Source: a virus. From it: DNA of 28,671 nt. The translations under genes were made by a program, and so were the position numbers. The stretch is from IMG/VR virus record IMGVR_UViG_3300049739_000531, positions 1-28,671 of that record. One strand, given 5' to 3'. Shown in pieces: positions 4,334-20,993 of the stretch (within the stretch, counting starts at the first letter, position 1; every line of letters begins with the position of its first letter). The notes under the pieces are model-generated. The model ran no database searches, had not been told where the DNA came from, and saw only the letters and a program-made list of their open reading frames with translations.

Positions 4334-4777
4334 ATGGCTCATTTTGCACAACTAGATGATAACAATGTTGTCACCCAAGTCATTGTTGTGAGCAACGATG
4401 ACACATCCGATTCAAACGGTGTAGAAACAGAAAGCATTGGTGTTGCTTTCTGTCAGAAACTTCTTGGTGCTTCTACTAACTGGAAACAAACTTCTTATAA
4501 TAGTACTATCAGAGGCAATTATGCAGGCATTGGTTATGCGTATTCGACTGGAGTAGCAACTCTTGGAGTTGGTTCTACTGATGTCTTTATGCCAGCAAAA
4601 CCATATGCATCGTGGACAGTTAGTACCACAGCAGCACAATGGGAACCACCCTCAACTCCTGGTGCAGCACCTACACTGACTGATGAAGAAGTAGCAGCAA
4701 ATAAGTATTACGTATGGAACGAAAGTAATTATCAAGCAGACCCAGCAACTGCCTGGGTTCTAACCACACCAGAATAA
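4334..4777 (+). CDS. Conserved short structural protein (147 aa)
   Basis: It starts MAHFAQLDDNNVVTQVIVVSND, a pattern I associate with short proteins found near tail-fibre genes of T4-like cyanophages and other marine phages. Other family-like features are WKQTSYN (about residues 51-57), RGNYAGIGYAY (62-72), FMPAKPYASW (about 84-93) and an aromatic C-terminal segment AAQWEPPSTPG (100-110). A mixed alpha/beta virion or assembly protein is likely; I cannot name its position. An intrinsic terminator follows six bases after the stop, making it the last gene of its unit. It differs from its neighbours in lacking glycine runs. Confidence 0.7.
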   Translation: MAHFAQLDDNNVVTQVIVVSNDDTSDSNGVETESIGVAFCQKLLGASTNWKQTSYNSTIRGNYAGIGYAYSTGVATLGVGSTDVFMPAKPYASWTVSTTAAQWEPPSTPGAAPTLTDEEVAANKYYVWNESNYQADPATAWVLTTPE

Positions 4778-6409: not shown

Positions 6410-7552
6410 ATGTCTAGGCTTAGATCTAATAAGGTAGTAAATCAAGCGGGCACGGGCGCACCCGAACTTACCTATGGTGCTGTTGTTCCTGCTACTGGTA
6501 CGATCTCTGGTGCTGGAGGCATTAATGTAACTGGGGTAGTAACCGCAACGAGTTTCAGTGGAGACGGTTCAGCGTTATCGGGAATTGATGCTAGTACTCT
6601 AAAAGACGGAAGCAATACAAAAGTTCAGGCAGTATCTACTGGTGCTAATGTTACTGGTAACGTTGCTGCATCAGGAAATGTAACCGCATCTGGAAATGTA
6701 ACTGCTGTTGATGGTACATTTAGTGGTAACTTAACAGTTCAAGGAACCACAACAACTATTGATACCGCTGTTACTGCTGTTGATAGCTTAGCAGTTGATG
6801 GTTCGGTTGGTATTGGAACCACAAATCCAACTGCAAAACTATCCGTTTTTACTGACGGAGTAGAAGACTCTTTTAGAATAGGAACTCCTAGTGGTTCTGA
6901 TACATTTATTAGACTTGGTTCTACAGGAACTGATCCAGATACACACGCTGTCATAAAATATGATAAGGAGGATAATTACCTATCATTACTTGTTTCTGGT
7001 GAATCTCATGGTGCGGGTGGAGTTCTGATTGCCAACGGTGGTAACGTTGGTATCAAATCTGCAATACCAAAAACATCGCTTGATATTGGAAGCACTGACG
7101 CAGTAGTAGTTCCCGTTGGCACAACAGGTCAGAGACCAGGAAGTGCTGCTGCTGGTATGTTCAGATACAACAGCACCGAAGGAAAGTTTGAAGGATACAC
7201 CACAGAGTGGGGAGAGATTGGTGGTGGAGGAGGTATTACAACAGAAGCATCAGTAGCATCAGGAGCAGTTGTAACATTAGACCTCACCGCAGCACAAGAT
7301 CATAAGGTGACAGCAACTGGTATCTGTACAATTACGTGTACTGGTGGAACAGAAGCAGATAGTCATACAGTAAGAATTATCAACAGCGGATCTGCAACAA
7401 TTGGATTTAGCACTTACTTCTTATTCCCGTCAGGTTCTACACCAAGTTTACCGAGTGCAGACGGATCAATTAATTTGATTTCATTCACGGTAAATAGGGT
7501 AGGAGCAGCAGGAACACAACTGCTTGCTGGCGCATCTGTAAACTTTAGCTGA
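6410..7552 (+). CDS. Tail-fibre protein with GTGAPEL N-terminus and TTTIDTAVTAVDSL module (380 aa)
   Basis: The N-terminus MSRLRSNKVVNQAGTGAPEL closely matches the starts of the 18240 and 21047 products, suggesting a shared virion-docking segment. Next come GVVTATSFSGDGSALSGIDAS, the repeats GNVAASGNVTASGNVTAVDGT, and the module NLTVQGTTTTIDTAVTAVDS (about residues 107-126), present in four genes. After this comes VGIGTTNPTAKLSV, a motif frequent in fibre proteins upstream of a variable head. The C-terminal part (about 283-380) is a separate beta domain, starting ASGAVVTLDLTAAQDHKVTATG, that is not shared with the other three genes. The layout suggests fibres with a common base and exchangeable tips. 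Its late promoter overlaps the previous stop. Confidence 0.75.
   Translation: MSRLRSNKVVNQAGTGAPELTYGAVVPATGTISGAGGINVTGVVTATSFSGDGSALSGIDASTLKDGSNTKVQAVSTGANVTGNVAASGNVTASGNVTAVDGTFSGNLTVQGTTTTIDTAVTAVDSLAVDGSVGIGTTNPTAKLSVFTDGVEDSFRIGTPSGSDTFIRLGSTGTDPDTHAVIKYDKEDNYLSLLVSGESHGAGGVLIANGGNVGIKSAIPKTSLDIGSTDAVVVPVGTTGQRPGSAAAGMFRYNSTEGKFEGYTTEWGEIGGGGGITTEASVASGAVVTLDLTAAQDHKVTATGICTITCTGGTEADSHTVRIINSGSATIGFSTYFLFPSGSTPSLPSADGSINLISFTVNRVGAAGTQLLAGASVNFS
6722..6790 (+). repeat. Dispersed fibre-module repeat, copy A
   Basis: A 69-nt segment encoding SGNLTVQGTTTTIDTAVTAVDSL in the 380-aa fibre gene. Homologous in-frame segments occur at 13951-14019, 18417-18485 and 21338-21406. This copy is conserved in protein but has diverged at many third positions. 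Confidence 0.7.
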
Positions 7553-10500: not shown

Positions 10501-13052
10501 GTGGATCTAGAGGTGCTAATTATACCGTTCAATATAGTGCAGACGGTAGCAATTGGTCCGACGCTTGGACTGGCAATTTCTCTACCAGCGGATGTGGTTT
10601 GATAAGTGGAACAGGTGGGGGAGGAGATTATGGAGAACATAAGTATTGGAGATATCAAGTTGGTAGCTCCACTGATAACCACCACCCAAATATCGCACGT
10701 ATTGTATTGGTGACTACAGGTGGAACGGAAATTGATATTGTCACAGTTACTTCCGATAACTGCTCCGATAGTGGATCATTTAACAGTACTACTTTAGGTG
10801 CAACCTACACAAATCCAAATAATCCAACAGCAACCACCTTCAACCCATTCACAACTGATATAAATGCAGTTCGTGGACAAGAGACTGGTTATCCTACTTT
10901 TAATCCACTTATTAATACACATGGACTTAGTAATGGTAATCTGACAGCATATGATACAGATAATACTTGGGATACAGTACCTGCTAATATTAGTTTTAAT
11001 ACTGGAAAATATTACGCAGAATTTACAGTAGATGTAAAAGGTTGGAACGTATTTGGAGTTGTTCAACTAGATGTATCAAGTACACCAAACTTTTATGGAA
11101 CTCATCCAGGTGGTGGTGCCGGTAATAAAGGTTTTGGGTGGGTTTTTGATCCTAGTGATTCTAGGGGTGATTTAACTTACAATAATACTAATTCACTTTA
11201 TACATATGGATCTGGACTTTCATCTAGCGTCGGTGATGTGATGTCAATAGCAATAGATTTGGACAATAATAATATTAGATTTTATAAGAACGGAGCACAA
11301 ATTTATAATCTTAATAATAAACTAGAGAGTGGTGGTAGGTATACTTATTCGTATGGTACTTATGCAACAGCAGGTGCAACTGTAAACTTCGGTCAAAAAC
11401 CTTTCAAGTTCCCACCACCTGATGGTTTCCAACCACTGAATGCTGCTAATGTAAGACCAGAGACTGTGATTGCACGTCCTGATCAGTTTGTTGGGGCAAC
11501 AATTTGGAGTGGTGATGCAAGTGGTAGTGGTGGAACAACACGGTTTATAGAAACTCAACATCAACCAGATTTTGTATGGATTAAACAAAGAAATCAAGCA
11601 TTTTCAACAGGACATCAACTTTATGATTCTGTAAGAGGTGCTGGTGCAGAGAAAGAACTTAATTCTTCTAGTACTGCTGCTGAAGGTGCAGGTAACATTG
11701 AAACTTGGGGTTGGGTAAATTCTTTTGACAAAACTGGATTCACAACTAAAGGTGGTCCATCAGGTTATGATTATGTTAATAATATTGGAGATGATTATGT
11801 AGCATGGACTTGGAGAGCTGGTGGAAACAAAAACACCTTTAATGTTGATGATGTAGGTTATGCAAGTGCCTCTGATGTTAATATGAGTGTTGGTGCTTTG
11901 AATAGTGCTACTTATAATACATCTCAAGTTTGGAGTGATGACGTAACAAAAGGCACAGGTAATGTTTACTCTAACAATATTTACGTGCCAGCTAATATTT
12001 TTAATGGGAATACTAGCAGTTATTGTAAAGTCGAGAAAGGAAGCAATTCTAATACTGTATCCATGCAACTGAGTAGTACAATTTCAGGAGTTACAAAGAT
12101 CCGCGTTAATACTAATTCTGTCGATAATTTTAATATTAACGGTGGATCAAACATTGCTTCAACTGACGGATATCAAACTATTTACGAAGGTTCTGCTATA
12201 ACACTCAGCGATTTGGATTTTACAAGAACAAATGGTGTATCAAGTGGTAATTCAGATACTGGATTTTTTGTTTATTCTATTGAAATAAACGGTTTAGAAC
12301 TACTTGACTCCGGCGTAACACCATCAACCAACTTCCCATCAATTGCTGCGACTGGTGCATCTGTTGGAACCAAGCAAGGGTTTAGTATTGTATCTTATAC
12401 ATCAGAATCTGGCACAGGAACTTTAACTGCAACTATTCCACATGGATTAAATGAGAACATTGGATTTATGATTATTAAAAGTAGAGACTTTTCACCTTCA
12501 TCTCAAGGTTGGGCTGTTTGGCATCAATCAAGTCCCACAGCAACAAGATATCTTGATAGCACTGAGATATTTTTAAATAGTGAGTATACTGCATTTTTTG
12601 ACGCCAACCCAACAAACTCTGTATTTAGTGTGAAGTGTAGTGCAAGTGTCAGTAGTGGCAATCGTTATAGGACTTATGGAAACTCACATAATTATATTGC
12701 ATATCTGTGGCACGATGTCCCCGGACTACAGAAATTTGGAAAATTCTCCGCTAATAATAGTACCGATGGTAATGTCATAGAACTTGGATTTAGACCCACA
12801 CTGGTGATTGCGAAGCAAATAACAGGTGGTGGTGGAAATTGGTTTATTCTTGACTCAAAAAGAAATACTTCTAATCCACTTAATAATATTCTTGATGCTA
12901 ATTTGGCTGATGATGAACGACAGGCTATAATATATGATTTCTTAAGTACTGGATTTAAACTTCGTATTGCTTTAACCGGAGACTTCATCTACTGTGCCTG
13001 GGCAGAAGCACCAACATTTAACTTGTATGGCGCACAGTCCAACGCTCGATAA
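7563..13052 (+). CDS. Giant multidomain lectin-like tail-fibre protein (1829 aa)
   Basis: A 1829-residue protein made of repeated carbohydrate-binding-type folds. Four LamG/concanavalin-like units are recognisable: about residues 20-200 (SLKFDGSNKTRI, WSCWTKRD, GWYHFFSTYDGS), 255-400 (FFMGMWVKFE, NWHHVALSRTGG, GFLDG), 570-745 (EGWINTN, WYHWAFVKSADG, FFLNG) and 764-930 (FDGTGDYCS, WYHLAVVRNSGT, LYVDG). About 965-1080 looks like a discoidin-type sandwich (YTVQYSADGSNWSDAW, KYWRYQVG). About 1120-1295 is SPRY-like (TGKYYAEFTVD, NNNIRFYKNGAQI, NFGQKPF). Two units of the type found in marine phage fibres follow (DUF7483-like). The first has FVWIKQRN, HQLYDSVRGAG and YVAWTWRAGGN (about 1336-1421). 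The second runs from about 1604 to the end (GFSIVSYTSESGTGT, GFMIIKSRD, and the closing WAEAPTFNLYGAQSNAR). It is likely the main host-surface glycan binder. Domain names come from motif recognition only. Confidence 0.8.
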   Translation: MGIALPQVVTSDRASGAQVIDGSLKFDGSNKTRIIKTFSSAGNRQSWTWSCWTKRDTLTRSDRQVIFGGYGASNNTDWLEIGWDSGADHVYFTTSGITADGTAQRRDPQGWYHFFSTYDGSTLKIYVNNRLDLSHSFTGDRGINVNGAHYIGQTPANSVDRYLYAKLSQCYFIDGQALGPESFGYTDGLTNTWRPKKYTGDFNVGSSSLTTQPAPYSAAARFSAYEEFGTVTNNDTGYTLPMSNPSHYGGKVRELDAGGFKVTTVNSATTDFFMGMWVKFETYSENEQFGIDLFGGYVYFETRANGAIGIRQSPGGRVDSSATSLNDGNWHHVALSRTGGTLYGFLDGSAVVNTTSGVSGDSVGANENFWFWGGSGTSYNIDGQVIDTFIYIGQGVSSYTTPTAPLIDASGNINHFSGFSDTQAYYISPGVDVSGSSPNPVPNYFVTGTNSFYLPMDGNSPIGEDKSGNGNNWTPVNFGGSNSLEKATGALPILNTDGGGRTARPGTRTDPYASSIVMAIPFLGNANDISADIKGSGSNLAVTTSGSPAADSDPVQWYGSSFNVSTNNHIDTIGTTSTFAFLHQPEVAGTIEGWINTNAVNVQGPWFQTSNGTNEIGVRFRQNSSTNLAVQIDRGTSGTYIVIDSSITIALNTWYHWAFVKSADGYAQFFLNGVPTGSKVPLSTAAGASNAAATNTSSSYAGRIAKNNGEARGIGANICDYRAYTVQKYAFDTSFIPASTNPDILPDTPSGVSGSSKLAKITDGAVYFDGTGDYCSTGSSSDFTMGTGDFTVECFIIKDDSSHRGIWQISSTSGGLQSTNYTQTLALGYQVNRWQLYAGGSAITGASPPTNGLVIPRKWYHLAVVRNSGTTKLYVDGREEMSTSDTYNYTGTYMAFGGYYNTSYLHYGNISNLRVLKGTALYTSNFTPPTRALTNVTNTKLLCCQSNTSPTAAAVTPGTITGPGTNYRFSTMKAYSVYNGGSRGANYTVQYSADGSNWSDAWTGNFSTSGCGLISGTGGGGDYGEHKYWRYQVGSSTDNHHPNIARIVLVTTGGTEIDIVTVTSDNCSDSGSFNSTTLGATYTNPNNPTATTFNPFTTDINAVRGQETGYPTFNPLINTHGLSNGNLTAYDTDNTWDTVPANISFNTGKYYAEFTVDVKGWNVFGVVQLDVSSTPNFYGTHPGGGAGNKGFGWVFDPSDSRGDLTYNNTNSLYTYGSGLSSSVGDVMSIAIDLDNNNIRFYKNGAQIYNLNNKLESGGRYTYSYGTYATAGATVNFGQKPFKFPPPDGFQPLNAANVRPETVIARPDQFVGATIWSGDASGSGGTTRFIETQHQPDFVWIKQRNQAFSTGHQLYDSVRGAGAEKELNSSSTAAEGAGNIETWGWVNSFDKTGFTTKGGPSGYDYVNNIGDDYVAWTWRAGGNKNTFNVDDVGYASASDVNMSVGALNSATYNTSQVWSDDVTKGTGNVYSNNIYVPANIFNGNTSSYCKVEKGSNSNTVSMQLSSTISGVTKIRVNTNSVDNFNINGGSNIASTDGYQTIYEGSAITLSDLDFTRTNGVSSGNSDTGFFVYSIEINGLELLDSGVTPSTNFPSIAATGASVGTKQGFSIVSYTSESGTGTLTATIPHGLNENIGFMIIKSRDFSPSSQGWAVWHQSSPTATRYLDSTEIFLNSEYTAFFDANPTNSVFSVKCSASVSSGNRYRTYGNSHNYIAYLWHDVPGLQKFGKFSANNSTDGNVIELGFRPTLVIAKQITGGGGNWFILDSKRNTSNPLNNILDANLADDERQAIIYDFLSTGFKLRIALTGDFIYCAWAEAPTFNLYGAQSNAR

Positions 13053-13055
13053 ATA
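13048..13055 (+). promoter_or_regulatory. T4-type late promoter (GATAAATA)
   Basis: GATAAATA overlaps the last codon and TAA stop (13050-13052) of the giant fibre gene and lies 13 bases before the ATG at 13069. This is shorter than at the other junctions, so the leader would be very short. Confidence 0.6.
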
Positions 13056-13068
13056 ATAAGAAAGCACG

Positions 13069-13485
13069 ATGTCTGTATCAAAGGCAAGACAACTAGCAAG
13101 AGACTTGGGTACTGTAGGTATCAGTTCTTCTGGTACCAGTATCCATACCTCTGTTGCCACCCTCAACTTTGTTGGTGCTGGTAATACTTTTGCTGTTCAT
13201 AATGATCAGGTAGACATTAGTATTGAAGGTGGTGGTGGAACCAAAGCAGGTGAGGCAATCGACTATCCAAGTGGAACCAAGTCACCATTTATTCTCAACA
13301 CTGTCGTAATCTCAGAGTCTATTACTCTTGGCAACTCAAACTCTGGAACTGGTGCTGCTAACATTGTGACTGGTGAGTCAATGATAACCGTTGATGATAG
13401 TGTTACGATTACGATTGAGGAAGGTAAGAAAGTAATTCCTGACCTCTTTAATGTGTTTGATACTCCAGAAAGATTTAGAAACTGA
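13069..13485 (+). CDS. Small structural protein with FVGAGN module and duplicated C-terminal unit (138 aa)
   Basis: Two parts are visible. Residues about 1-65 (MSVSKARQLARDLGTVGISSSG, in part, then LNFVGAGNTFAVHNDQVDISIEGGGG) match the N-terminal region of the 17170 product, including a near-identical DNA stretch at about 13163-13195 versus 17263-17295. Residues about 77-133 (VVISESITLGNSNSGTGAAN ... VDDSVTITIEEGKKVIPDLFNVFD) match the whole of the next gene. The protein is therefore a fusion of two circulating modules. It has no membrane or signal segment and is probably a minor fibre or virion surface component. The TGA stop overlaps the next ATG by one base (TGATG), indicating translational coupling. 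Confidence 0.7.
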   Translation: MSVSKARQLARDLGTVGISSSGTSIHTSVATLNFVGAGNTFAVHNDQVDISIEGGGGTKAGEAIDYPSGTKSPFILNTVVISESITLGNSNSGTGAANIVTGESMITVDDSVTITIEEGKKVIPDLFNVFDTPERFRN

Positions 13486-13694
13486 TGGAACTTCAACAGG
13501 TTGGTGATAGTAATTTTAATAAATCGACAGTTGTTATTACTGAATCGATGACACTTAATGATGCTAACACTGTTACTGGTGCTGCTCATATTGTAACCAA
13601 TCAAGCAATGCTTATAGTAGATGATAGTGTTACTATCACGATTGGAGAAGGTAAAACTGTGATACCTGACGTTTATAATATATTTGATAAATAA
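13485..13694 (+). CDS. Small protein duplicating the C-terminal unit of the preceding gene (69 aa)
   Basis: Nearly the entire protein consists of a unit (VVITESMTLNDANTVTGAAH ... VDDSVTITIGEGKTVIPDVYNIFD) that aligns without gaps to residues about 77-133 of the upstream product. This is a tandem duplication. The sharing of VDDSVTITI.EGK.VIPD shows conservation at protein level with many silent DNA differences, so the duplication is old or under selection. The start ATG overlaps the upstream stop (TGATG). The function is unknown; the beta-rich unit and location suggest a virion protein. The last codons contain the late promoter of the next gene. Confidence 0.7.
   Translation: MELQQVGDSNFNKSTVVITESMTLNDANTVTGAAHIVTNQAMLIVDDSVTITIGEGKTVIPDVYNIFDK
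13686..13693 (+). promoter_or_regulatory. T4-type late promoter (GATAAATA)
   Basis: GATAAATA is embedded in the final Asp-Lys-stop codons of the 69-aa gene and lies 23 bases before the ATG at 13717. Confidence 0.65.
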
Positions 13695-13716
13695 CTAGAA
13701 AGAAAGACTGAAGGCG

Positions 13717-14457
13717 ATGTCACAAATTAATGTAAATACTATTACTGGTAAAGATGGTGGAAGTGCTGTTAATTTTCCGAACGGTATTACTGTTACAGGC
13801 GTCGTAACAGCGACACAATTAAATCAGAATGTTAGTGGAAATGTAACTGCTAGTAGTTTTACTGGACCTCTTACTGGTAATGTTACTGGTAATACTTCTG
13901 GAACTGCAGGTAGTTTAGCATCAGGTGCTACTGGTGCTGATCTTACATTAAGTGGCAACCTGACTGTAAATGGTACTACAACCACTATCGACACTGCCGT
14001 TACTGCAGTAGATAGTTTAGAGGTTGATGGTAATATAAACGTTGGTGCTGGATTAAGTGCTTACGGATTTAAGGTAGAAGAAGGAGCGTATGGTACTGCT
14101 GCTCTCAATGGTTTATTTAATTTAAACCTTACAGATGGGCACGTTCAAGAATTTAATGCTGCAACTTCTGGCAATTATGTACCAAACTTTAGGATAAGTC
14201 CTACTGTTAGTTTAGAATCCAAGATGGGTGTTGGTGATGTAACTGCTGCAACTATCATTGTTCAATCAAGTTCTCATTACTGTTTGAATGAGTTTAGGAT
14301 TGATGGAGCACAAACAGGTATTACAACGTCTTGGATAGGAGGTTCTGCGCCGACTGCTGCGAATGGTTCTGGATTTGATATTTACGCTTTCACAATTATG
14401 AAGACTGCTTCCACACCGACGTATCATATCATCGCTAACGCAACATCCGCTGCTTGA
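13717..14457 (+). CDS. Tail-fibre protein, first gene of duplicated cassette (246 aa)
   Basis: The N-terminus MSQINVNTITGKDGGSAVNF differs from the GTGAPEL group but keeps the same position and a following FPNGITVTGVVTATQLNQN. Then come SFTGPLTGNVTGNTSGTAGS, a motif common in fibre shafts, and NLTVNGTTTTIDTAVTAVDS (about residues 82-101). The C-terminal domain (about 120-246) ends in GGSAPTAANGSGFDIYAFTI. It is related to the end of the 18240 product (GGSAPSAGASGYDVYTFALQ), including similar spacing to the stop. A two-domain glycine-rich gene follows directly after AGGAGGT in both places, so the two genes form a cassette present twice. A fibre subunit paired with an adhesin or chaperone is a plausible role. 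Confidence 0.75.
   Translation: MSQINVNTITGKDGGSAVNFPNGITVTGVVTATQLNQNVSGNVTASSFTGPLTGNVTGNTSGTAGSLASGATGADLTLSGNLTVNGTTTTIDTAVTAVDSLEVDGNINVGAGLSAYGFKVEEGAYGTAALNGLFNLNLTDGHVQEFNAATSGNYVPNFRISPTVSLESKMGVGDVTAATIIVQSSSHYCLNEFRIDGAQTGITTSWIGGSAPTAANGSGFDIYAFTIMKTASTPTYHIIANATSAA
13951..14019 (+). repeat. Dispersed fibre-module repeat, copy B
   Basis: A 69-nt segment that matches 18417-18485 at 65 of 69 positions. The four differences are all single bases at third codon positions (T/C, T/C, A/G, A/C). This is much closer than the flanking coding sequence and suggests recent recombination or gene conversion between the two fibre genes. Confidence 0.8.
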
Positions 14458-14472
14458 TAGGAGGTAATAACA

Positions 14473-16602
14473 ATGTTAAATAACTGGTTTAAAAAAGAAA
14501 AACCATTCGTTGGTTTTGCAGGTTTTGGTGGCGGTGCTACTGGATTAGCATTTGGTGGCGGGGGTGCTGTTGTTGCTACTGGTGGCATTAAGCATTGGAA
14601 TTCTTCGGAGAATAGTGGTACGATGTACCACATATTTACGCAACCAGGAAACTTTGTGGTTACTGGCGGTGGTAATGTAGAAGTATTAATTGTTGCTGGT
14701 GGTGGATCAGGTGCTAATGGACAGGCTGGTGGAGGTGGCGGCGGAGGTGTCGTTCATGGAACAGAAATTGCCGTTTCTGATGGAACAATTCCAGTTGTCG
14801 TTGGTGATGGTGGCGGTGCTGTAAGTGGTGGAAGTTATAATTATTGTGGAAATAAAGGTGCTTCTAGTTCATTTAATGGTGTAACTGCCATAGGTGGAGG
14901 TGGAGGAGTTAGAAATAATTATGCTTGGGGTGGTATGCCAACCGCTCAACAAGATCAGGTTGCTGGTGCTAACTGTGGTGGCGGCGGTGGTGGAAGTATG
15001 TCTGGCAGTGGTCCCGGTTTTCCTACTGCTGCTATACTTCCTCAACCTGTACCAGGTTCTTATGTAGCTTATGGTGGTAATTATGGTGCTCCTGCTGCTG
15101 GCGCTGGTGGAGGTTCTGGTGGCGGTGGCGGTGGTGCTGGTGCAAATTCGCCAGGTCCAGCAGATCCTAGAGGAGCAGATGTAAATTCCCCAGGTGGTGC
15201 TGGTAAAGCAATACCATCTTTTAACAGTACAACTATTACATATATGCCTTCTTCTTGGTCAACTGCTGTTGGTCCTACTGGTCTCTATGGAGGTGGAGGC
15301 GGTGGTGGTGAAGATGGTCCAAATGGGCGTGGTCTTGGTGGACCTGGTGGTGGTGGTGCTGGACAAGATCCAACAAACACTACATCACCTGGTGCAGTAC
15401 AAAATACTGGAGGTGGAGGTGGCGATAGAGGAACACCTGGTCTTCCTTATACCAATACCGCTGGTGCAAAAGGTATTGTCCTGGTTAAATATACATCAAA
15501 AATTACTTCTGATATAACCACACTTTCTGGTGGGAATCAGTTTACTATTGGAAATTATTCATATCATGTATTCTCTGCAGGAGAAGATACATTTACTACA
15601 CAAACAGACATTACTTATGATATTCTTCTTGTAGCAGGTGGAGGTGGCGGTGGATCTGATAAGGCTGCAGGAGCTTGTGGTGCCGGAGGTGGTGGTGGTG
15701 TAATTTATGCCGAAAACCAAACTCTAACGGCAAATTCATATAAGACTTTTGTTGCTGGTGGTGGATTATCACAACCAGGAGATCCTTCACCCAATCCAAA
15801 GGGTGATAATGGCGGAAATACTGTCTTCTCTGAAGTTAATATTCCTAGTTCCACAAAAACAAATATGAGTGGTTTTTCCATGCCATCAGGTACTTGGATT
15901 GCCTTAGGTGGAGGTGGTGGGGCAGGATCGGGACCTGGTAATGCTGATCTTGCTGGTCGTGAAGCTGGTACTGGTGGCGGCGGTGGTTCTGACAGTGGTG
16001 GTGGCGGTGGTGCAGTCCAAACTACACAATCATCACTCCCAGCAATATCTAGAAGTAATGGTTCTGGAAATAGTGGTCGTACTTCTTCTACCGCCTACCC
16101 AGCTAGAGGTGGCGGTGGTGGTGGACACGCACCATCTGGTTATGGTCAGGGTAATCAAAATCAAGGTGGTAGAGACGGATATCAAGTTCCAGCATCTTTC
16201 TTGCCAACTTCAGTTCCATCAAATTTTGCAAATTTATTAGGTGCTAGTCATCCTGCTGCTAAAGGTGGTGGAATTGCAACCAATAGTCCTGAATGGAGAT
16301 ACTTCGCTGGTGGTGGAGGTGCTTCTGATAATGTTCCTGCTACTAACGATACTTACCAAGGATCTGGTGGTTTAGGTGGAGGAGGAAATGCTGGTGGAGA
16401 AGGAAGGTCATCACCATCTAATCCAAGAACTGCTAAAACTGGAAATACTTATTATGATCCTAGTAACCAAACTTCACCTGGTGTTGATGGAAGAGGTGGT
16501 GGCGGTTCTGGAAATGGTTTAGATAATAATGGAAGTTCTTACAGCTACTTTGGTGGAAATGGTGGTAGTGGTATAATTATTATCAGGGTTCATAATAGTT
16601 GA
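14473..16602 (+). CDS. Glycine-rich adhesin-like protein, two domains (709 aa)
   Basis: The N-terminus MLNNWFKKEKPFVGFAGFGG resembles MFNLFNKKEAPLLGLQGSGG of the 19146 product. Domain 1 spans about residues 34-342, from VATGGIKHWNSS through VEVLIVAGGGSG to GAKGIVLVKYTS. Domain 2 spans about 348-709, from TLSGGNQFTIGNYSYHVF through YDILLVAGGGGGG to the terminal GGSGIIIIRVHNS. Long Gly runs are mixed with Pro-Gly, Ser and Asn, as in polyglycine-II adhesins of the gp38 type. A strong ribosome site AGGAGGT (14459-14465) lies 7 bases before the ATG, unlike most genes here. It is probably a receptor-binding tip protein; this rests on composition and context. The next gene, 3 bases on, encodes a 2OG-Fe(II) oxygenase. 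Confidence 0.75.
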   Translation: MLNNWFKKEKPFVGFAGFGGGATGLAFGGGGAVVATGGIKHWNSSENSGTMYHIFTQPGNFVVTGGGNVEVLIVAGGGSGANGQAGGGGGGGVVHGTEIAVSDGTIPVVVGDGGGAVSGGSYNYCGNKGASSSFNGVTAIGGGGGVRNNYAWGGMPTAQQDQVAGANCGGGGGGSMSGSGPGFPTAAILPQPVPGSYVAYGGNYGAPAAGAGGGSGGGGGGAGANSPGPADPRGADVNSPGGAGKAIPSFNSTTITYMPSSWSTAVGPTGLYGGGGGGGEDGPNGRGLGGPGGGGAGQDPTNTTSPGAVQNTGGGGGDRGTPGLPYTNTAGAKGIVLVKYTSKITSDITTLSGGNQFTIGNYSYHVFSAGEDTFTTQTDITYDILLVAGGGGGGSDKAAGACGAGGGGGVIYAENQTLTANSYKTFVAGGGLSQPGDPSPNPKGDNGGNTVFSEVNIPSSTKTNMSGFSMPSGTWIALGGGGGAGSGPGNADLAGREAGTGGGGGSDSGGGGGAVQTTQSSLPAISRSNGSGNSGRTSSTAYPARGGGGGGHAPSGYGQGNQNQGGRDGYQVPASFLPTSVPSNFANLLGASHPAAKGGGIATNSPEWRYFAGGGGASDNVPATNDTYQGSGGLGGGGNAGGEGRSSPSNPRTAKTGNTYYDPSNQTSPGVDGRGGGGSGNGLDNNGSSYSYFGGNGGSGIIIIRVHNS

Positions 16603-16605
16603 GTT

Positions 16606-17160
16606 ATGTTTTTTCGTTATGATTTTATTGAAAGATATCCTAAATTAATATCACCATCTGACTGTGAAAGAATAATTAATAAATTTGAGGGGTGTCCTAA
16701 TAAGGCACCCTGTTTTGATCTTGAGAAAAAAGATTGTTCTCAGATAGGTTTGAATTTTGATAACTTTGATATTGTATCAAATTTAATTCAAGAACCATTA
16801 AGAAAAAGTATATTTAAATATTATGATAAGTATAATTCTTATGATGTTATAACTGCAAATAAGATAACCAGTGATTATAATATTCAGAAGTATGATCCTG
16901 ACCAAGCATATCATAGAATACACTGTGAGAATGGTGGATTGGAGATATCTAAAAATAGAATTTTGGCGTGGATGATATATCTAAATGATGTTACTGATGG
17001 TGGTCAAACATATTTTCCACAACAAAGAAGAAAAATAAAACCTAGAGTTGGTGATCTTTATGTTTGGCCAGCATATTTTACTCATCCACACAAAGGATTG
17101 ATTAGCAAGACACAAACTAAATACATTGCTACAGGTTGGTGCCATTTTATAAATATCTAA
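16606..17160 (+). CDS. 2-oxoglutarate/Fe(II)-dependent oxygenase, prolyl-4-hydroxylase-like (184 aa)
   Basis: Members of this superfamily hydroxylate proteins or small molecules using Fe(II), O2 and 2-oxoglutarate. The sequence shows the expected order: YHRIHCENGG (about residues 102-111) with H106 and E108 as the proximal iron ligands (HxE rather than HxD), AWMIYLNDVTDGGQTYF (121-137), KPRVGDLYVWPAYFTHPHKG (145-164) with H160 as likely distal ligand, and SKTQTKYIATGW (167-178) with K172 as a candidate 2-oxoglutarate anchor. The fold appears complete at 184 aa. It lies 3 bases after a glycine-rich adhesin gene and inside the fibre region. Its DNA is visibly more A/T-rich than its neighbours, suggesting separate acquisition. 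A role in modifying the Pro-Gly-containing fibre proteins is possible; modification of host or lipopolysaccharide targets cannot be excluded. Confidence 0.88.
   Translation: MFFRYDFIERYPKLISPSDCERIINKFEGCPNKAPCFDLEKKDCSQIGLNFDNFDIVSNLIQEPLRKSIFKYYDKYNSYDVITANKITSDYNIQKYDPDQAYHRIHCENGGLEISKNRILAWMIYLNDVTDGGQTYFPQQRRKIKPRVGDLYVWPAYFTHPHKGLISKTQTKYIATGWCHFINI
17148..17155 (+). promoter_or_regulatory. Consensus T4 late promoter (TATAAATA)
   Basis: A perfect TATAAATA lies within the last codons of the oxygenase gene, 14 bases before the ATG at 17170. Confidence 0.7.
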
Positions 17161-17169
17161 AAAACCATA

Positions 17170-18213
17170 ATGTCATTCACAAAGGTAGAATATAGAGGTT
17201 TAGAAGTCGGTAAAGTCGGCATTAAAACCTCTAATGGCGTCATTGCTGTTGGCGCTACGATGCTCAACTTTGTTGGTGCTGGTAATACCTTTGCAGTTAG
17301 TGCTGATGGAACTACTGTTGATATCAGTATCGCTGGCGGCGGCGGTGGTGGTAATAGTGAGATATTAAAAGAAACTTTCAACGTATCAGGAACTCAATCA
17401 GTATTCAATATTACTGAAGGACAGTTTAGTACTGGGTTCCTTGAAGTATATTTGAATGGTGTTAAACTCAATCAATCTGACTTCACTGAAAATCCCCCTA
17501 CACAATTCACTCTTGACGTTGCTGCAGAAGCAGGTGATGTAGTTGAGATTATTGGATTTAAAGATAGAGGAACTAATACTTCTATCAACGCAGAACTTAC
17601 AAACTTAAACGTCACTGGTATCGTTACTGCTGGTCAGTTTGTTGGTAATGGTTCTAGAATTACAGGTGTTATTGGTTTAGGAACTGCCATCATACATGAT
17701 ACACCTGTACTTGGTAATATCTTCTATAGAAATAACACTCTAAGTGTTGGCAGCACAGTCACAATGGACGTGCCTAGTGCTGCTGAAAGTAATGTTGGTT
17801 ATACTCACCATTCAGATCTTGCTGTAGAAGATGGTGCTGACTTCATTGTTGCTGATGGTGATGAGTTTATTGCTGATGTATTAGGTATCGGAACTGACTC
17901 TGTTCCTCTTCCTGGCAATGGTGGTAGAGTTCGTGCTGATAACTTTACTAACAGAGCAGGTAACGGACCGCCATCATTCCCATTTGGTATTCAGTTAAGC
18001 GGAAGTTCTGCTATCAATGATGAAAGTCCACTGACTACTAACACTGGATTTATAACCATTCAGAATGTTCTTGATGTAAGTACCGACACAACAATTGCTG
18101 GTTCTACAACTTCTACTGTAACCACAAAGCGTAGAGCAGTTGTTGTTGCTGCTACTAAGAGTTTGATACTTGGTTCTGATTGTGAATTAGTTATCAACAC
18201 ATCAGGCATATAA
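17170..18213 (+). CDS. Tail-fibre/structural protein with FVGAGN and ETFNV modules (347 aa)
   Basis: The N-terminal region (MSFTKVEYRGLEVGKVGIKT, then LNFVGAGNTFAVSADGTTVD and a glycine run) matches the 13069 product. The next part, ETFNVSGTQSVFNITEGQFS and LEVYLNGVKLNQSDFTENPP (about residues 74-115), matches the 4841 product. Then follow NLNVTGIVTAGQFVGNGSRI (about 146-165), a variant of the GDGSxLxGV shaft motif, and FRADNFTNRAGNGPPSFPFG-like residues that echo the GTGAP start of other fibre genes (actual text RVRADNFTNRAGNGPPSFPF, about 257-276). The C-terminus ends in KSLILGSDCELVINTSGI. It is a mosaic of modules from at least three neighbours. A virion fibre role is likely; no enzymatic motif is seen. 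Confidence 0.75.
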   Translation: MSFTKVEYRGLEVGKVGIKTSNGVIAVGATMLNFVGAGNTFAVSADGTTVDISIAGGGGGGNSEILKETFNVSGTQSVFNITEGQFSTGFLEVYLNGVKLNQSDFTENPPTQFTLDVAAEAGDVVEIIGFKDRGTNTSINAELTNLNVTGIVTAGQFVGNGSRITGVIGLGTAIIHDTPVLGNIFYRNNTLSVGSTVTMDVPSAAESNVGYTHHSDLAVEDGADFIVADGDEFIADVLGIGTDSVPLPGNGGRVRADNFTNRAGNGPPSFPFGIQLSGSSAINDESPLTTNTGFITIQNVLDVSTDTTIAGSTTSTVTTKRRAVVVAATKSLILGSDCELVINTSGI

Positions 18214-18216
18214 ATA
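18209..18216 (+). promoter_or_regulatory. Consensus T4 late promoter (TATAAATA)
   Basis: A perfect TATAAATA overlaps the TAA stop (18211-18213) of the preceding gene and lies 23 bases before the ATG at 18240. Confidence 0.75.
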
Positions 18217-18239
18217 TAATTAAAAGTTGGTCGTAGTTA

Positions 18240-19133
18240 ATGTCGATACTTAGAGCTGATAGTATTCGTGATAGATCGGGCACGGGTGCTCCTGACTTTC
18301 CTAATGGTCTTACTGGCAATGTAACTGGTACGGCAACCACTGCTACTAATGCACAAGGAATTACTGGTACTCCAAACATTACTGTTGGAACTGTAACGGG
18401 TACTGATGCTACTTTCAGCGGCAACCTGACTGTAAATGGTACTACAACCACCATCGACACTGCCGTTACTGCGGTCGATAGTTTAAATGTTGAGGGGTCG
18501 GTTGGTATTGGAACAATTACTCCTACTAAAAAATTAGAAGTTGCAGTAGGTAATAGTGCTAGTGATGGTATTTTACTAAAGGGGAATAGCAGTCCCGCTA
18601 TTCAAATAGATGAGGGTTCTGGTGTATCGGCAAATTTTGCTTTAGATGGCAATGGATCTTATTTCGGTCCTACTTCCAATCATTATCAAGTATTCCGAAC
18701 AAACAGTGCAGAAAGACTTCGTATCACATCAGGCGGCACAGCAATCTTCAAGGGTGGACTTGCTGAAAAATATAATTCTATTTCGGGAAATCTTGCAAGT
18801 AATACAAATCATTCAATATTTAATGGAAACGTTATTGCCTTTGCAGTTGGTGATACAGGCACCTCTCTCACAATCAACTTTACTGATGTTCATGCAACAT
18901 TAAGTCAACAAGAGTTTTGTTCTTTCACAGTCATACTTGATCCTGGCGGAGCTGGTAAAATTACAACAGTTCAGATAGATGGTCAATCCCCAGCAGGTGG
19001 ATTGAAATGGTCAGGTGGTTCAGCACCTTCTGCGGGAGCATCTGGTTATGATGTTTATACTTTTGCTCTTCAAAAATATGGTACTGCAGCAAATAATTAT
19101 ATAGTTTATGGTGCTGCAACCAACTACGATTGA
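18240..19133 (+). CDS. Tail-fibre protein, second cassette copy (297 aa)
   Basis: The N-terminus MSILRADSIRDRSGTGAPDF belongs to the GTGAPEL group (with 6410 and 21047). It continues with LTGNVTGTATTATNAQGITG and the TTTIDTAVTAVDSL module (about residues 70-83), then VGIGTITPTKKLEV, similar to the 6410 product. A middle section (about 95-180) includes YFGPTSNHYQVFRTNSAERL and LRITSGGTAIF, typical of fibre C-terminal heads. The last about 115 residues (GDTGTSLTINFTDVHATLSQ ... GGSAPSAGASGYDVYTFALQ) are related to the end of the 13717 product. The gene is thus a hybrid, with a start like 6410 and an end like 13717. It is followed 12 bases later by a two-domain glycine-rich gene, with AGGAGA as ribosome site. 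Confidence 0.75.
   Translation: MSILRADSIRDRSGTGAPDFPNGLTGNVTGTATTATNAQGITGTPNITVGTVTGTDATFSGNLTVNGTTTTIDTAVTAVDSLNVEGSVGIGTITPTKKLEVAVGNSASDGILLKGNSSPAIQIDEGSGVSANFALDGNGSYFGPTSNHYQVFRTNSAERLRITSGGTAIFKGGLAEKYNSISGNLASNTNHSIFNGNVIAFAVGDTGTSLTINFTDVHATLSQQEFCSFTVILDPGGAGKITTVQIDGQSPAGGLKWSGGSAPSAGASGYDVYTFALQKYGTAANNYIVYGAATNYD
18417..18485 (+). repeat. Dispersed fibre-module repeat, copy C
   Basis: The partner of 13951-14019, identical at 65 of 69 positions. It encodes SGNLTVNGTTTTIDTAVTAVDSL inside the 297-aa fibre gene. Confidence 0.8.
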
Positions 19134-19145
19134 TAGGAGAATATA

Positions 19146-20993
19146 ATGTTTAATTTATTCAATAAAAAGGAAGCACCTCTTCTGGGACTGCAAGGTTCTG
19201 GTGGAGGTCTTGGTTTCTTGACAGGTGGCGGCGGAGGAGGTGTTCGAGCATCTGGTGGAACAATTCTGGATTACGGTGGTTATAGATCACATAAATTTAC
19301 TTCACTAACACCGAATACTTTCGATGTTCAAACTGGTGGACCTGTTGATATCTTAATCGTCGGAGGCGGCGGCGGAGGCGGCGGTGATAACGCTGGTGGA
19401 GGAGGTGCTGGTGCTGCCAGAGTTATTCCAAATGTTGAAGTTGCTGCCGGTGTCAATTATGCTATTCAAATTGGTCAAGGTGGAAGGGGGAGTATAAACA
19501 GTGATGGTGATGGCACTCCTATAGCAAACAACCAAGCTTATTCTGGCGGTGCCTCACGTTTTCAAAATGGTGGAATTGATTACGTTGCCAATGGTGGTGG
19601 TCTTGGTGCTTCTGCTGGAGCGATTAATGCATATCCTAGCCCCAACCTGACTGGTGGTTCAGAATCTCAGACTAATTCTCCTGGCGGAAATGGATCTGGC
19701 GGTGGTGAAAGAGGAGATCAACCACCATTTGGTGGTGCTGGATCGGGTGGAACTTATGGATATAATGGTGGTACTGGCGCTAGTGGTGCAGGCGGCGGTG
19801 GCGGTGGTGCTGGTGCTGTCGGTCAAAATGGTGATGTAAGAGGAACTCAACTTGGTGGTAATGGTGGAGCAGGTATTCAAAATAATTATGAAACTGGTAC
19901 CAATCAGTGGTATGGTGCTGGTGGTGGCGGAGGAAATAATAATGGTGTTTGGGACGCACAGTCTCCAACAAATGGTATTGGTGGTGTGACGCAAGGTGGT
20001 CCTTCAACACCGTCAACGAATGGTGCAACTAATACTGGTTCTGGTGGTGGTGGAGGAACTCATCCTCAATCTTCTGTTGGTGGTAATGGTGGACCTGGAG
20101 TTATTATTGTTAGATATCTTTACTCGGCACCTACTAGTGTTGATGCAACTGGTGGAACTAAGACTACTTCTGGTAATCAAACAATTCATACATTCACTAG
20201 TGATGATACTTTTACTGTTAATAGTAACTCAACATCTTTAGGAAAAATCTTACTCGTCGGTGGTGGCGGTGGTGGCGGCGGAGATAACTCTGGTGGTGGC
20301 GGCGCAGGTTGTCTTCAGTATAGAGAAAATTTCACAATTTCTCCTGGATCTTATCCAATTAATATTGGATCTGCTGGTGATGGAGCTCCAGGGACAAACA
20401 ATGCAGCAGGAGGTGGTGGTGCGACTACTGGAATGTCAATAACTGCACCTGGTGGTGGTTATGGTGGAACTGGTGATACTAATAAGTATGCTGGTGGCGC
20501 TGGTGGTTCTGGTGGCGGTGGTGCTGGTGAAACAGCTGCTAACTCAAGTTCTGGTGGCGGTGGTGCTGGTAGTGCTGGTCATCCAGGTGGAATTGATGTA
20601 GTTTCTCCAAGTTCGGGATGGGGTAATCCTGGTGGTGGTAATAGTAATAATGGCGGCGGCGGAGGAGGCGGCGCTGGTGCTAGAGGTAGTGACGGAGCAA
20701 GTGATACTATTGGTGGAAACGGTGGAAATGGTGCTAGATATAGCATCAGTGGATCTACTGTTTATTATGCTGGTGGTGGAGGCGGTGGAAATGAAAATGA
20801 CACCCAATCACCTGAACCTCAAGGCGGACTAGGTGGTGGTGGAAATCACAACTATGATTATCCAAACAAACCTGCTGCTGCAAATGGTGATACTAATACC
20901 GGTGGAGGCGGTGGAGGCGGTACCTATAATTCTGGTGGAGTTACAGGTGGAAATGGTGGAACTGGTATTGTAATTATTTCTTATCCCACTTAA
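19146..20993 (+). CDS. Glycine-rich adhesin-like protein, two domains (615 aa)
   Basis: The N-terminus MFNLFNKKEAPLLGLQGSGG pairs this protein with the 14473 product. Domain 1 spans about residues 33-326, from RASGGTILDYGGYRSHKF through VDILIVGGGGGGGGD to GGPGVIIVRYLY. Domain 2 spans about 334-615, from ATGGTKTTSGNQTIHTFTSD through GKILLVGGGGGGGGD to the terminal GGTGIVIISYPT. The two domains of this protein resemble each other closely (both have VGGGGGGGGDN.GGGGAG), which suggests internal duplication. The role is inferred to be a tip adhesin or fibre cap in the same class as the other glycine-rich proteins. No membrane or signal segment is visible. Confidence 0.75.
   Translation: MFNLFNKKEAPLLGLQGSGGGLGFLTGGGGGGVRASGGTILDYGGYRSHKFTSLTPNTFDVQTGGPVDILIVGGGGGGGGDNAGGGGAGAARVIPNVEVAAGVNYAIQIGQGGRGSINSDGDGTPIANNQAYSGGASRFQNGGIDYVANGGGLGASAGAINAYPSPNLTGGSESQTNSPGGNGSGGGERGDQPPFGGAGSGGTYGYNGGTGASGAGGGGGGAGAVGQNGDVRGTQLGGNGGAGIQNNYETGTNQWYGAGGGGGNNNGVWDAQSPTNGIGGVTQGGPSTPSTNGATNTGSGGGGGTHPQSSVGGNGGPGVIIVRYLYSAPTSVDATGGTKTTSGNQTIHTFTSDDTFTVNSNSTSLGKILLVGGGGGGGGDNSGGGGAGCLQYRENFTISPGSYPINIGSAGDGAPGTNNAAGGGGATTGMSITAPGGGYGGTGDTNKYAGGAGGSGGGGAGETAANSSSGGGGAGSAGHPGGIDVVSPSSGWGNPGGGNSNNGGGGGGGAGARGSDGASDTIGGNGGNGARYSISGSTVYYAGGGGGGNENDTQSPEPQGGLGGGGNHNYDYPNKPAAANGDTNTGGGGGGGTYNSGGVTGGNGGTGIVIISYPT

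Follow-up and report, generated by a model that had tools for sequence, protein, structure and literature searches.

The window analysed here, a 28.7-kb virus record, encodes a 2OG-Fe(II) oxygenase with a prolyl-4-hydroxylase (P4H)-like predicted fold directly behind a glycine-rich, probable receptor-binding adhesin, and the adhesin body and the oxygenase gene are exchanged jointly among sibling phages. Tight linkage of this kind recurs in other marine myophages, and the joint exchange together with the recurrent pairing in cultured marine phages suggests that the enzyme modifies the phage's own adhesin. Our best explanation, which we give an even chance of being right, is that the oxygenase is an adhesin-dedicated protein hydroxylase within an exchangeable receptor-binding cassette, acting on the co-exchanged adhesin. 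A P4H-type protein hydroxylase encoded in such a cassette of a T4-like cyanophage would hydroxylate side chains (Pro, or Asn/Asp/Lys) of the adhesin from the gene just upstream, the hydroxylation would precede assembly, and it may tune loop stability or receptor binding to the putative benefit of the phage.

The oxygenase and its place in the fibre cluster

The flanks of the window were 92-99% identical in nucleotide sequence to a 231-kb contig (G034), both psbA and psbD were present on that contig, and at its end the window carried genes for thyX, phoH and an exonuclease ordered as in S-CAM9. By these sequence criteria the source is identified as a T4-like cyanophage, with the window representing its fibre cluster. 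Two cassette copies (13717-16602 and 18240-20993), each pairing a phrog_5906-type protein with a KKE[KA]P-type glycine-rich protein behind it, flank the oxygenase, whose ATG lies 3 bases past the stop of the 709-aa ORF (TGA-GTT-ATG); the gene layout thus confirmed both the spacing and the location between two cassette copies given in the first-pass annotation. The other four of the window's five glycine-rich genes lack an oxygenase immediately after them, a count that weighs against our best explanation. Small MAHFA..D proteins (phrog_7759 in the window, 4334-4777; L194, 4906-5472; L089) trail glycine-rich genes in many loci and are perhaps fibre-assembly chaperones; searched by sequence, the PDB yielded no relative of the 4334-4777 protein.

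Table 1. Features of the fibre cluster around the oxygenase gene (window coordinates).
Feature	Position	Strand	Remarks
phrog_5906 fibre-associated protein	13717..14457	+	Upstream cassette partner, kept in siblings
709-aa Gly_rich_2 protein, probable receptor-binding adhesin	14473..16602	+	Directly 5' of oxygenase
5' end of glycine-rich gene	14473..14572	+	Conserved N-terminal anchor MLNNWFKKEKPFVGFAGFGGG, common to sibling phages
Exchanged block (glycine-rich body + oxygenase gene)	14573..17150	+	blastn vs sibling L105/L186
2OG-Fe(II) oxygenase, prolyl-4-hydroxylase-like, 184 aa	16606..17160	+	Predicted Fe ligands H106, E108, H162; predicted 2OG-binding K172
Fibre-associated protein phrog_28668	17170..18213	+	First gene 3' of exchanged block; 83-90% identity in siblings
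phrog_5906-type protein	18240..19133	+	Second cassette copy
615-aa glycine-rich protein	19146..20993	+	Second cassette copy; anchor MFNLFNKKEAPLLG; no oxygenase behind

The oxygenase matched PF13640 (2OG-FeII_Oxy_3; E=2e-10, 41.8 bits against a curated cut-off of 27) and phrog_61 (E=3e-35). Its AF2 model had a pLDDT of 93.7, and 49 of the 50 PDB matches listed in a fold search with this model were P4H- or PHD-type prolyl hydroxylases. The best PDB relative by both fold and profile was the PBCV-1 viral collagen P4H (5c5t), followed by a Pseudomonas P4H, PHD2, a Bacillus P4H and an algal P4H; AlkB was not among the profile and fold matches listed. Profile and predicted fold therefore bore out the earlier description of the gene product as a prolyl-hydroxylase-like enzyme. 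The motif is HxE..H..K, with H106, E108, H162 and K172 invariant in 28 aligned phage sequences. In the profile alignment H106/E108, H162 and K172 lined up with the HxD motif, the His and the Lys of both 5c5t and 5hv0, and K172 lies 10 residues past the distal His H162, as does the 2OG-binding Lys of P4Hs. The carboxylate departs from the HxD of P4Hs, with Glu in place of Asp both in the window oxygenase and throughout the 28 phage sequences aligned. HxE is found in other active 2OG oxygenases, e.g., AsnO and clavaminate synthase, and for this reason enzymatic activity of the window oxygenase is plausible despite its HxE.

Relatives of the oxygenase were matched in 442 phage records, nearly all of them cyanophages, with a best identity across most of the length of 41% and identities of 32-42% among the best 60 of the 442. 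The closest oxygenases (51% identity) came from two loci, L002 and L003, which formed a clade with the window oxygenase (SH-aLRT 97); dN/dS between these two was ~0.29, indicating that the gene is under constraint. Members of the phrog_61/PF13640 family were also matched by phrog_2297 and phrog_274 (DNA endonuclease) as well as by phrog_3531 (ferrochelatase), labels that are probably wrong.

The probable glycine-rich adhesin and its exchange among sibling phages

The 709-aa protein matched Gly_rich_2 (PF21722) over two stretches (E=3e-14, 54.2 bits, cut-off 24.3). The AF2 model of its C-terminal glycine-rich domain was of low confidence (pLDDT 72), and its best PDB fold matches, the Bxb1 tail tip, the Pam3 cyanophage fibre and the ALK glycine-rich domain, had TM-scores of 0.33-0.35, too low for a claim of homology. 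At the sequence level, the PDB gave only poor low-complexity matches to the 709-aa protein, tblastn against phages returned nothing, probably owing to low-complexity filtering, and a scan with the N-terminal anchor gave no confirmed match.

The first-pass annotation had proposed hydroxylation of X-Pro-Gly sites that would stabilize a polyglycine-II or collagen-like core. A polyglycine-type adhesin is plausible given the Bxb1 and Pam3 matches of this low-confidence model. The collagen-like part of the proposal was dropped, as no (Gly-X-Y)n collagen repeats were found in the 709-aa neighbour, in which the longest strict G-X-Y run was three triplets. The site argument fared no better: the quoted examples (APGPNGEG, VPGQPGG, TPGG) come from the glycine-rich proteins encoded at 1267 and 2318, with none inside the adjacent 709-aa protein, and Pro-Gly was at chance in all five glycine-rich proteins of the window (z from -0.9 to 0.6; z=-0.4 for the 709-aa neighbour), so that X-Pro-Gly enrichment was discarded as evidence of a substrate. 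Nor was the proline content of oxygenase-linked glycine-rich proteins significantly higher than that of unlinked ones (p=0.07).

Comparison with sibling phages gave evidence of a different kind. By blastn, sibling L105/L186 was colinear with the window at 83% identity over 12700-14572 and at 90% over 17150-18514, and between these homologous stretches it carried a different glycine-rich body and no oxygenase. Homology broke off ~33 codons into the glycine-rich gene, past the conserved anchor, and restarted just before the end of the oxygenase gene; since these two points enclose both, the adhesin body and the oxygenase differ as one block. A second sibling (L187), which lies on a contig carrying psbA and psbD and has flanks 88-99% identical to the window, encoded a different 331-aa glycine-rich protein and, in the oxygenase slot, an unrelated 153-aa ORF (6531-6992) that had no PHROG match and is possibly another adhesin-linked accessory gene. 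In siblings L186, L187 and L188, the second glycine-rich gene of the window was also swapped behind its anchor, here without an oxygenase. The conserved N-terminal KKE[KA]P anchor (window 14473-14572 and 19146-19261; L186, L187, L188) precedes freely exchanged glycine-rich bodies. Judged from these alignments, the glycine-rich genes look like exchangeable receptor-binding cassettes.

The sibling comparison also bears on the earlier suggestion that the gene is A/T-rich and a recent arrival. The oxygenase is indeed A/T-rich (GC 0.29), which results mostly from its amino-acid composition; GC at third codon positions (0.178) was similar to that of neighbouring genes and GC at four-fold sites was only slightly low (0.083, n=48; other genes 0.11-0.34), making composition alone a weak sign of recent import. 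The sibling alleles, in comparison, are strong evidence for a recent gain or loss of the oxygenase at this locus. Decay of the oxygenase gene in sibling contig G034, where an oxygenase-like frame is disrupted, was considered and rejected; assembly frameshifts are more likely because other genes on that contig are broken as well.

Recurrence of the oxygenase behind glycine-rich genes

The two closest oxygenases (L002 and L003) each start 24 bases after a glycine-rich gene. The window glycine-rich domain (residues 361-626) matched only that of L003 among 35 glycine-rich proteins compared (41% over 275 columns), and a scan of the collection with this domain recovered only L003 and a contig that also holds L002, so that all three carriers of the window-type domain, a small number, have an oxygenase. 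An oxygenase was also found directly behind a glycine-rich gene in L014, L059, L067 and L189 (reverse strand), and after a glycine-rich gene and an intervening 118-127-aa gene in L010, L045, L059, L067 and L081; all of these loci were located via the oxygenase and so illustrate the arrangement while giving no measure of its frequency. In six loci with glycine-rich genes that were instead retrieved through phrog_5906 from other phages (L106, L121, L136, L145, L147, L155), no glycine-rich gene was followed by an oxygenase, two of these genes running to the contig edge, and the association is therefore not universal.

Twelve cultured cyanophages, picked for possessing a relative of the window oxygenase, contained 138 oxygenase genes, of which 38 lay at most 6 kb from a Gly_rich_2 gene, whereas circular shifting predicted 9.4 (p=5e-5, the lowest value attainable with 20,000 shifts). 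Among the eight genes downstream of glycine-rich genes, 42/100 were 2OG oxygenases compared to 4.9% genome-wide; the nominal binomial p of 1e-28 overstates the significance of this enrichment because synteny is common between the genomes and these were chosen for an oxygenase relative. A downstream oxygenase was present for 11 of the 13 glycine-rich genes, the two exceptions closing an array, and the oxygenase arrays lay mainly on the downstream side. The link between the two families, whose co-occurrence the first-pass annotation had put forward as a check, proved real, recurrent and modular. Arrays of oxygenases behind a glycine-rich gene occur in cultured cyanophages (L091, 10893-17055; L089; L194), with at least eight each in S-RSM4 and S-SM1; in Syn30, a gap of 29 bases separates the Gly_rich_2 gene from the oxygenase behind it. 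Many other relatives of the oxygenase are far from glycine-rich genes, e.g., beside UvsX and gp41. A single clade of adhesin-linked oxygenases was rejected, as the tree carried five label changes with at least two forced by starred branches; the only supported linked clade was that of the window with L002 and L003.

Alternative explanations and comparison with known systems

A broader form of our explanation is that T4-like cyanophages carry adhesin-maturation cassettes open to exchange, in which each glycine-rich receptor-binding protein would have its own modifying enzymes (2OG hydroxylases and, in some phages, a tryptophan halogenase or carbamoyltransferase) that put post-translational chemistry on the fibre tip, altering receptor binding or evading host resistance. 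We put this forward tentatively; if true, it would help explain the presence of up to 24 such oxygenases in one phage. The same accessory genes feature in the first alternative, a pathway that tailors another product, be it a polysaccharide of the host surface or capsule or a halogenated small molecule, with its genes in this same part of cyanophage genomes. Arrays by glycine-rich genes include a tryptophan halogenase in Sf-CH11 and, in S-SSM5, a gene annotated as a Nol-like carbamoyltransferase, located on the opposite strand (L090, 12514-14178), overlapping the end of the glycine-rich gene and preceding the oxygenases; P-RSM4 and S-CAM8 (L197, L198) have an ORF of similar size in the equivalent place. 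Similar genes in S-SSM6a have been proposed as a secondary-metabolite or capsule-decorating cluster (PMC7824862), which counts in favour of tailoring. The window, however, has one oxygenase with no other tailoring enzyme adjoining, this oxygenase is co-exchanged with the adhesin body, the oxygenases most closely related to it are found immediately after glycine-rich genes and its nearest fold relatives act on proteins. On balance we regard a tailoring pathway as unlikely.

A passenger gene, lodged in a region between tail-fibre genes that serves as a recombination hot-spot for adhesins and unrelated cargo, appears rather improbable. The whole area is hypervariable, the slot in L187 holds an unrelated ORF and the glycine-rich-adjacent oxygenases do not form one clade, all in keeping with cargo. 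Chance cargo would nevertheless sit poorly with a single superfamily making up 42% of the genes downstream of glycine-rich genes in the cultured cyanophages, in arrays mainly on one side, and the conserved catalytic residues and the dN/dS of ~0.29 argue for use of the enzyme.

An auxiliary metabolic gene, which would consume 2-oxoglutarate or act on a host protein and so reprogram host nitrogen or energy metabolism, is the role already in print: Sullivan et al. (2010; PMC3037559) put forward 2OG/NtcA metabolism for the whole class of 2OG oxygenases in cyanophages, and a host-metabolism role was proposed for the 24 oxygenase copies of S-SCSM1 (PMC9602691). For the window gene we consider it less likely still, since it leaves unexplained the joint exchange with one adhesin allele, the place directly behind adhesins and the sibling allele free of the gene. 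Least probable by far is an AlkB-type DNA-repair or DNA-modification enzyme: a repair role was proposed for Syn9 homologues beside UvsX and UvsY (review PMC2984593) and copies adjoin UvsX in S-RIM50 and ACG-2014g, but the window gene is located among fibre genes, and protein P4Hs are what it matches best by profile and by fold. None of the proposals in PMC3037559, PMC2984593 and PMC7824862 accounts for the enzyme being exchanged along with an adhesin body.

Among the unexplained genes of marine cyanophages, those for 2OG-Fe(II) oxygenases rank with the most abundant, and a role in host metabolism is usually ascribed to them; should many of them instead serve to mature receptor-binding proteins of the phage itself, a large class of annotations would take on a different meaning. 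These enzymes form a well-known family, and no report of phage virion hydroxylation, or of linkage between such oxygenases and tail fibres or adhesins, was found in the literature searched, subscription papers being outside its reach. Adhesin modification by a dedicated hydroxylase would, if true, amount to a post-translational diversification of adhesins in phages, likewise not found in that literature and directly testable in cultured phages.

Among known systems, the PBCV-1 enzyme vCPH (5c5t, 5c5u) is the best PDB match to the window oxygenase by fold and profile. It differs in having HxD where the window has HxE, in its ~20% identity and in coming from an algal virus, and the neighbour of the window oxygenase is without collagen repeats. 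Mimivirus hydroxylases (L230 and others) modify the virus's own collagen-like protein (PMC9546862), a precedent that differs from the window in involving true collagen repeats and a eukaryotic virus. On the adhesin side, the available parts of the descriptions of Pam3 gp24 and S16/PP01 gp38 portray glycine-rich receptor-binding tips in which conserved parts are combined with hypervariable receptor-binding regions (PMC9608196, PMC12892980), and those for Pam3 gp24 and S16 gp38 make no mention of an oxygenase. The third fold match of the window glycine-rich model, the Pam3 fibre 7ypx (TM-score 0.35, model pLDDT 72), fits this picture, though at a score too low to establish homology. Finally, the phrog_61/PF13640 oxygenases of cyanophages belong to the same family as the window gene and share the same HxE..H..K in those aligned; these are generally taken for auxiliary metabolic genes or repair genes, whereas the window oxygenase is present in one copy, immediately follows a glycine-rich adhesin and is co-exchanged with it.
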